From an uncultured Pelagibacteraceae bacterium (GTDB taxonomy: Bacteria; Pseudomonadota; Alphaproteobacteria; Pelagibacterales; Pelagibacteraceae), in contig CACLEU010000003.1 of NCBI GenBank assembly GCA_902606075.1, positions 1 through 64,000 on the forward strand: a DNA stretch of 64,000 nt, in the 5' to 3' direction. Each line of letters starts with the position of its first letter. The stretch's first letter is position 1. The notes beneath the pieces were generated by a model. That model had not been told where the DNA came from, searched no databases, and was given only the letters and a program-made list of their open reading frames with translations. This document shows positions 53,015 to 54,949 of this stretch, piece after piece. The translations under genes were made by a program, and so were the position numbers.

Positions 53015-53138
53015 AAATCCTCCTAAAAATAAAAAATACCAGATTAATTAAATAATTCCTTAATTAAATATTCTTTATTCACAATATTCAACTATAAGTT
53101 TATTTTTAATATTATTTGCTATGTTAGTATTCAAATTC

Positions 53139-53450
53139 ATGAAAAAAATAATTTGTTTGTGCTTGATACCTTTATTTATCTTTTTATCCAGTTGCAAAAC
53201 TGTTCAAAATAAAGCCGATCAAGTAATCCAAAAAGAAGACGAGTATTTAAAAAAATTTTTAAACAAAAAAAAAGATTTGTTAATAGCTGAATTTGGAAAT
53301 CCTGACTTAATTGCACCAAATGACGGAGAGCCCGAAGGACCGGGCATGATAATATATGTTTCAAAAAAATACGGTATCAAATGTAAAAGAAGTTTTGAAA
53401 TTGACGAAAGTGATTTCGTAATAGGATACTCTTCAAAGGGATGTTTTTAA
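53139..53450 (+). CDS. Small conserved lipoprotein, function unknown
   Basis: MKKIICLCLIPLFIFLSSCKT lipobox; ATG at 53139 preferred. Confidence 0.7.
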   Translation: MKKIICLCLIPLFIFLSSCKTVQNKADQVIQKEDEYLKKFLNKKKDLLIAEFGNPDLIAPNDGEPEGPGMIIYVSKKYGIKCKRSFEIDESDFVIGYSSKGCF

Positions 53451-53473
53451 CTTGCGGGGCTTCGCCCCACAAG
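53451..53473. terminator. GC-rich hairpin between convergent lipoprotein and hsp20 genes
   Basis: CTTGCGGGGCTTCGCCCCACAAG inverted repeat with one C/A mismatch; no long U-tract on either side. Confidence 0.65.
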
Positions 53474-53484
53474 TAAGGTTGAGA

Positions 53485-53931
53485 TTATCTTATTTGTATA
53501 AGTTTTTTTTTCTTAAATTCTGGAACTATTCTTTCACATTCAATAGTCAAAAGACCATCTGTTAAATCAGCTTCTCCAACTTTCAAATCTTCTGCTATTT
53601 TGAATGATTTAGTAAATTGCCTTTGAGATATCCCTTTATGAATAATCTCGCTATTATCAGCATTATTACTAGATTTTTCAATCTGCTTAGTTCTAACAGT
53701 CAAAAGATTGTCTTCGTATTCAACCTCAACATCTTTTTTATTAAATCCTGCAATGGCTACTTCGATTGAGTATTTGTCTTTTCCAGTTTTTCTAATGTTA
53801 TAGGGTGGATAATTTGAATGAGTTGTCAAACTTCCATTTCCTAACATGTTTTCAAATTGATCAAACATATCATCAAAACCTACAGAAAACGGTCTTAACG
53901 AGTTAAAGATTGATATATCCCTACTTGTCAT
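53485..53931 (-). CDS. Hsp20/alpha-crystallin small heat-shock protein
   Basis: Alpha-crystallin domain YNIRKTGKDKYSIEVAIAGFNKKDVEVEYEDNLLTVRT; ATG at 53931. Confidence 0.94.
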   Translation of the reverse strand: MTSRDISIFNSLRPFSVGFDDMFDQFENMLGNGSLTTHSNYPPYNIRKTGKDKYSIEVAIAGFNKKDVEVEYEDNLLTVRTKQIEKSSNNADNSEIIHKGISQRQFTKSFKIAEDLKVGEADLTDGLLTIECERIVPEFKKKKLIQIR

Positions 53932-53981
53932 TTTTTCTCCTTTGTTAGCAAGTTTGTTTTGATGTCCCATTAGGCAACATC
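53932..53981 (-). promoter_or_regulatory. Candidate ROSE-like RNA thermometer in the hsp20 5' UTR
   Basis: Minus strand CTTGCT-AACAA-AGGAG-AAAAA-ATG: UUGCU can pair with the AGGA Shine-Dalgarno (53938-53951); upstream hairpin GATGTTGCCTAATGGGACATC (53961-53981). Confidence 0.55.
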
Positions 53982-53988
53982 GAAATGT

Positions 53989-54015
53989 ATATGGTAATTA
54001 TTTTTGAATTTTCAA
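53989..54015 (-). promoter_or_regulatory. Candidate sigma32 heat-shock promoter for hsp20
   Basis: Minus strand TTGAAA-N15-CCATAT, similar to TTGAAA-N11/16-CCCCATNT, in the hsp20 upstream gap. Confidence 0.5.
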
Positions 54016-54025
54016 TATGTAATTT

Positions 54026-54949
54026 TTATTTATTTTGCTGCAATGCTTTAACATGCTCATCTGCACTTTCTGCAAGAGCATTTAAATCATAACCGCCCTC
54101 TAATATCGAAACTACTTTTTTATTAGTGTATTTATTTGTTGCAATTAGAGTCCTTCTTGTAATTTCGTAAAAATCTTTTGATATTAATTTAAATTGAGCA
54201 AGTGGATCGTCTTGATGCGCATCAAAACCAGCAGAAAAAATTAAAAACTCTGGTCGAAATTGATTTAACTTCTTTAAAACATGATTGTAAGCATCAAAAT
54301 AATCATTAGAGGATGTGCCTGCTGGCAAAGGTATATTAAATATGTTATTAAATTTTCCTTTCTCATTATCAGACCCAGTGCCTGGAAAAAAAGGGTATTG
54401 ATGAGTTGAAATATATAAAACTTTTTTATTTTCGTAAAAAATATTTTGTGTACCATTACCATGATGTACATCAAAATCTACGATAGCTATTTTTTTGTAA
54501 TTATATTTCTCTATTAAATATTGAGCTCCTATAGCCGCATTGTTAAAAATACAAAAACCCATGGCTTTATTTTTCTCACAATGGTGCCCTGGCGGTCTCA
54601 CGGCACAAAATACATTGTTGAATTTTTTAGTTTCTACACCATCTATTGCCTTAATTATAGATCCTACAGCATCATATGTTGCTTTTTTACTTCCAGGAGA
54701 GATAACTGTGTCACCATCTAAAAACTTTAAACCATTTGAGGGAAATGAATTTTCTATATTGTCAACATAATCAGATCCATGAACTTTCTTTAATATTTTT
54801 AAGTCAAATTTTTCTGACTTAATCCATGTGAGGTTATCTCTTTTTTTTAATTTATTTATAATTGACTCAACTCTTTTTGGCTGTTCTGGATGTCCATCTC
54901 CAGTAATGTGATCTTTTGAAGTGTTAGATGTTACAATTGCAGTATTCAC
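54026..54949 (-). CDS. Histone deacetylase / acetoin utilization family amidohydrolase
   Basis: AVRPPGHHCEKNKAMGFCIFNNAAIGA; IVDFDVHHGNGTQNIF. Confidence 0.93.
   Translation of the reverse strand: MNTAIVTSNTSKDHITGDGHPEQPKRVESIINKLKKRDNLTWIKSEKFDLKILKKVHGSDYVDNIENSFPSNGLKFLDGDTVISPGSKKATYDAVGSIIKAIDGVETKKFNNVFCAVRPPGHHCEKNKAMGFCIFNNAAIGAQYLIEKYNYKKIAIVDFDVHHGNGTQNIFYENKKVLYISTHQYPFFPGTGSDNEKGKFNNIFNIPLPAGTSSNDYFDAYNHVLKKLNQFRPEFLIFSAGFDAHQDDPLAQFKLISKDFYEITRRTLIATNKYTNKKVVSILEGGYDLNALAESADEHVKALQQNK

Follow-up and report, generated by a model that had tools for sequence, protein, structure and literature searches.

The closest described relatives of the element reported here are ROSE elements in the leaders of small heat-shock genes. 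The classical alphaproteobacterial case, ROSE1 of Bradyrhizobium hspA, consists of three to four hairpins in a longer leader (PMC3669281). The ROSE elements of Pseudomonas ibpA comprise two hairpins in 61-62 nt, stand under sigma32 control and are proven thermoregulators, in which hairpin II melts while hairpin I remains folded (PMC3669281). This short element is probably the one represented by Rfam family RF02523 (ROSE_3), whose pattern fits the numbering given in PMC3669281. No thermometer from SAR11 bacteria was found to be reported in the open literature searched, and the paper on structured RNAs of Pelagibacter (PMC2704228) mentions neither heat-shock genes nor thermometers.

We analysed a stretch of 64,000 nucleotides (the window) from Pelagibacter (SAR11), an uncultured member of the Pelagibacteraceae whose assembly totals 824,906 bases in 37 contigs. 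It contains an hsp20 gene, and judging by its conserved anatomy and by analogy with the proven ROSE elements, from which melting and translational control are carried over, the leader of this gene is very probably a short two-hairpin RNA thermometer of the ROSE type under an RpoH (sigma32) promoter. The features concerned are, in the direction of transcription:

54026-54949, minus strand: histone-deacetylase-family gene preceding hsp20
54010-54016, minus strand: -35 element ATTGAAA (sigma32 consensus CTTGAAA), read from the sequence, with TTGAA near invariant in 147 leaders
53989-53995, minus strand: -10 element ACCATAT (sigma32 consensus CCCATAT), read from the sequence and conserved in 147 leaders
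53961-53981, minus strand: SL1, predicted 5'-terminal hairpin, DNA GATGTTGCCTAATGGGACATC, RNA GAUGUU[G]CC-UAAU-GGGACAUC (bulged G, in brackets, at 53975), marked by compensatory changes, transcription being predicted to start at its base
53947-53952, minus strand: anti-Shine-Dalgarno (anti-SD) strand CUUGCU with the ROSE motif U(U/C)GCU and a bulged G at 53949, near invariant in 94 distinct leaders
53937-53941, minus strand: Shine-Dalgarno (SD) sequence AGGAG, paired to 53947-53952 over the 5-nt loop AACAA, near invariant in all leaders and predicted to be paired at low temperature
53929-53931, minus strand: ATG start codon of hsp20, read from the sequence
53919-53925, minus strand: candidate alternative partner for the anti-SD strand in codons 3-5, AGUAGGG in the window and AGUAAGG in most relatives, under synonymous constraint and complementary to (C)CUUGCU
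53485-53931, minus strand: hsp20 coding sequence, 148 aa (PF00011, E=2.1e-15)

The nearest NCBIfam models for the hsp20 product are IbpA/IbpB, which it matches below cut-off. In an order-level search, 10 of 150 genomes with at least 90% completeness gave no match to the Hsp20 of the window, several of them belonging to genera g4 and g6; the gene is therefore sometimes lost or too divergent. At its other end, a GC-rich hairpin (CTTGTGGGGCGAAGCCCCGCAAG, 53451-53473) lies between the hsp20 stop codon and the end of a convergent gene on the plus strand (53121-53450) and is probably a terminator shared by both genes.

The preliminary description had proposed a sigma32-like promoter before hsp20, followed in a leader of about 50 nt by a UUGCU/AGGA core with one bulged G and a 5-nt loop. 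Re-reading the window reproduced its sequence and coordinates, and the element positions on the minus strand agree with the leader length. Both promoter and core were borne out in hsp20 leaders gathered from Pelagibacter and ten genera of the order, the core being conserved across the order and beyond and the promoter keeping its register in all of 147 leaders. These 147 are the distinct leaders of the family in which SL1 could be located; their promoters were scored out of 14 against CTTGAAA-N11-16-CCCATAT, with 1470 shuffles of the upstream sequence as control. All 147 reached a score of at least 10, versus 111 of the 1470 shuffles, and 141 reached at least 11, versus 11 shuffles; while 49 leaders scored a perfect 14, the shuffle maximum was 11. 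The spacer was exactly N14 in 141 of the 147 leaders, and the promoter of the window, with TTGAAA at 54015-54010, reads ATTGAAA-N14-ACCATAT. The genome from which the window derives also encodes RpoH itself. From these sequence features, we infer that the predicted RpoH (sigma32) promoter drives hsp20 and that heat induction of the gene would be RpoH-dependent. Because the -10 box ends 10-14 bases upstream of the SL1 core, transcription is predicted to start at the base of SL1.

For the analysis of the RNA structure, we built a covariance model, R1, on the leader and used it for a structure-aware alignment of 95 leaders (94 distinct) from seven genera of the family. Pairing in SL1 was kept in 99.3% of the cells of this alignment, and two-sided compensatory changes occurred at 7 of its 9 pairs among the 94 distinct leaders. 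Over the whole leader structure, 100 cells showed two-sided changes, compared to 23 in shuffles, and none of 500 shuffles was as good; the signal was largely lost once the pairing partners were slid by one base or more. The same covariation of SL1 appeared in weaker form in a plain, structure-blind alignment, from which RNAalifold recovered only weak structure because the 3' arm of SL1 was misaligned, a fault remedied by the structure-aware model. By itself, SL1 folds at -6.6 kcal/mol. The covariation looked for in both helices of the leader is thus strong in the hairpin at 53961-53981, as judged by the 500 shuffles, and slight in the anti-SD/SD helix. The hairpin, which had been listed apart from the ROSE-like core, proved to be real and conserved, but it is not a separate structure: together with the SD hairpin it makes up the two-hairpin element, and both contain the same bulged G. 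The surrounding pattern in SL1 (UYG-CC against GGG) is also that of the SD hairpin (UYG-CU against AGGA), and the two look as if they were copies of one motif.

Since the inverted repeat at 53961-53981 overlaps the predicted start site, where operators are commonly found, it might be read as a DNA operator for a repressor. We consider this very improbable, because its arms vary freely but compensatorily whereas the bulged G and the apical CC/GG are fixed, which is the pattern of an RNA hairpin; nor does it resemble the CIRCE consensus. Translation of a leader peptide from the AUG in the SL1 loop, as a means of regulation, has even less to recommend it and was rejected because neither the ATG nor its reading frame is conserved. 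Although most leaders carry the loop ATG, and 41 of them share the commonest predicted peptide, MGLTINKLA, the codon is missing in eight leaders, is preceded by no evident SD sequence and opens frames whose nature and length vary by clade (MGH, MGLT, in-frame fusions).

Every genus of the family retains the U(U/C)GCU/AGGA core together with the bulged G. The sole recurrent change in the anti-SD strand, from UUGCU to UCGCU (CUCGCU, genus g3), replaces a U·G by a C-G pair and keeps the pairing with the SD sequence. The second family of the order has AUCGCU-UAAGG-AGGAU at this place, where the bulged G is retained and the register of the same core is shifted. Covariation of the helix is thin because it is nearly invariant, which is to be expected since one of its strands is the SD sequence; an invariant SD sequence with an invariant neighbour could, however, be conserved for unrelated reasons. 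Standard folding energies describe the non-canonical ROSE helix badly; with them, ViennaRNA predicts the SD helix of the window, consisting of just 5 bp and the bulge, to be formed to about 62% at 20 °C. The predicted unpaired fraction of the SD sequence rises gradually between 10 °C, where it is 0.30, and 45 °C, where it is 0.64. The predicted values vary widely between relatives, and in two of them (L066 and L109) the helix is predicted to form rarely.

Such a weak SD helix in several genomes, together with the position of SL1 at the predicted 5' end, the usual site of a protective hairpin, would also suit a leader that simply combines an mRNA-stabilising hairpin with a strong SD sequence, the UUGCU complement then having no role in translational regulation. 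This is unlikely in our view, because it would leave unexplained why UYGCU is conserved along with an unpaired G, why the one recurrent change to UCGCU is compatible with pairing, and why the same pair of hairpins recurs before hsp20 throughout the class. We therefore prefer to interpret the leader as a thermometer.

The anti-SD strand may have a further partner within the coding sequence. Among 142 distinct hsp20 genes, codons 2-4 (ACA AGT AAG) showed 0, 0 and 1 synonymous changes by parsimony, the three lowest values of 104 conserved codons with a mean of 13.8. The lysine at codon 4 is encoded by AAG in 136 of 137 cases, versus 6.5% AAG and 93.5% AAA among codons 2-8 of 177 further genes, and where arginine takes its place, 4 of 5 codons are AGG, compared to 4.4% AGG among the arginine codons elsewhere in hsp20; AGG keeps the pairing. 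Between AGUA(A/G)GG and (C)CUUGCU, 6-7 bp can form, and this codon helix often wins in short unconstrained folds. In the energy model, the SD helix is the preferred one in 128 of the 142 genes at 10 °C, and at 37 °C the codon helix is preferred in 108. The frozen synonymous sites, the codon choices at position 4 and the switch in model energies would all fit a two-partner thermometer, in which the anti-SD strand pairs either with the SD sequence (ROSE helix) or with codons 3-5 (CCUUGCU/AGUAAGG), as a complement to the ROSE mechanism and not as its replacement. The codon pairing would either enclose the entire start region in a clamped loop or sequester the anti-SD strand as the temperature rises and so leave the SD sequence free. 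We put this forward tentatively and think it on balance rather improbable, because the energy differences lie inside the model error and a perfect pair would need AGC where the gene has AGT. Compensatory changes are unavailable for this pairing because CUUGC is invariant wherever AGTAAG occurs. Furthermore, the early codons of a neighbouring permease gene, used as a control (113 sequences; two further neighbours yielded too few), are also partially constrained, and the codon feature is missing from genera g3 and g7, the order's second family and the matches in other families. Slightly more doubtful still is the idea that the coding sequence itself forms part of the thermometer in Pelagibacter and the genera closest to it, with temperature selecting between the two folds (SD versus codons 3-5). 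We found no report of a ROSE element with a second partner in the coding sequence in the open literature searched.

Scanning the window against Rfam at the gathering threshold and at E<=10 gave no ROSE match, and the ROSE families RF00435, RF01832 and RF02523 gave none in the leaders of 11 relatives; as a positive control, E. coli ibpA scored 100.4 bits with ROSE_2. The ROSE_3 model aligned over its full length with the leader of one relative (L212), with a score of 28.6 bits, below the threshold of 43 (E=2.3e-4 in 191 bases). Hairpin I of ROSE_3 (CGGGAU[G]CCG...CGGGUCCCG) shares the bulged G and CC/GGG with SL1. A scan of 241 alphaproteobacterial genomes with ROSE_3 produced five sub-threshold matches, one of which (L223) precedes hsp20, while no hsp20 start was visible at the other loci read out.

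In its anatomy, the SAR11 leader resembles that of Pseudomonas ibpA, as both have a sigma32 promoter, a small heat-shock gene, two hairpins within about 50-62 nt, a stable hairpin I, and U(U/C)GCU set against the SD sequence in hairpin II. It differs in being AT-rich, with a UAAU loop in hairpin I and a shorter and weaker hairpin II, in scoring below the Rfam thresholds and in having constrained codons complementary to the anti-SD strand. Compared by the description in PMC3669281, ROSE1 of Bradyrhizobium shares the core motif and the target gene class with the SAR11 leader, unlike which it has additional hairpins and a greater length. The ROSE_2 element of E. coli ibpA (RF01832) likewise carries a UCGCU/AGGAG core before a small heat-shock gene, but it has at least three hairpins in about 100 nt, and SAR11 leaders obtain no ROSE_2 score. 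The 5'-most hairpin of E. coli ibpA (GGACGC[G]CC-UGAU-GGGUGUUC) is nearly the SL1 of SAR11, with the bulged G, CC/GG and a URAU loop in common. In the E. coli leader (L184), this hairpin lies upstream of the ROSE_2 match and is not covered by the Rfam model, whose middle hairpin likewise shows a bulged G. It is possible that hairpin I is an ancient component of ROSE that has escaped modelling. The SAR11 leader thus shows pairing of U(U/C)GCU with the SD sequence around a bulged G, a place before a small heat-shock gene and a further stable hairpin upstream, together with scores below the curated threshold of the Rfam ROSE families. Because it consists of the same parts in the same order as the two-hairpin element of Pseudomonas, we file it as a new AT-rich, divergent member of the short two-hairpin ROSE type, by anatomy and with no Rfam family by score.

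In Pelagibacter, R1 gave one strong match per genome, always before hsp20, and otherwise weak ones; an extra match in a relative (E=8e-4) lies inside a coding sequence. A class-wide search with R1 and a broader model, R2, found the same two-hairpin hsp20 leader in about ten further alphaproteobacterial families (f9, f16, f35, f41, f62, f80, f118, f122 and f134, with f146 less clear), and several of these leaders come from genomes of 3.9-4.3 Mb. The short leader is therefore not a product of genome streamlining in SAR11, and the suggestion of the preliminary description that it represents a minimised version in a streamlined genome is not supported; the proven Pseudomonas form has two hairpins as well (PMC3669281). 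The hsp20 leaders of the order's second family (L173-L183) are longer and contain two other hairpins, e.g., GCUGAUGGCAAUAAUGCAUCAGC and GCCUAGCUUAAUUUAAGUAGGC, before AUCGCUUAAGGAGGAU, and long and short ROSE forms therefore coexist within one order. In family f81 (L245:1507-1558 in G614 and L242 in G522), a leader with an SL1-like bulged-G hairpin and CUUGCUU-AAU-AAGGAG stands before an rpoH-family sigma factor gene instead of hsp20 (the gene after the L245 leader matches NF005143, sigma-32, at E=6.7e-87); in a second genus of this family, a gene of this type is likewise preceded by a ROSE-like core.

In the mechanism we propose, heat would act through RpoH to increase hsp20 transcription, and the mRNA would start at the base of SL1, which, as in Pseudomonas, would stay folded and probably aid folding and protect the 5' end. 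In the cold, CUUGCU would pair imperfectly, with one G bulged, with the strong Shine-Dalgarno sequence AAAGGAG and hide the ribosome site; on warming, this weak helix would open and give the ribosome access.

These results point to the presence of a well-understood control device, ROSE, in SAR11, where it was missed by standard RNA-family models, and indicate that its short two-hairpin form is widespread in alphaproteobacteria below detection by the current Rfam models. The bulged-G motif of hairpin I emerges as an old shared feature and a candidate for testing, and the complementarity of the synonymously frozen hsp20 codons 2-4 to the anti-SD strand may be new. In the ocean, SAR11 bacteria rank with the most abundant of all cells, and they possess few regulators; a temperature switch that acts on their small heat-shock gene without the help of a protein would therefore bear directly on their response to warming.
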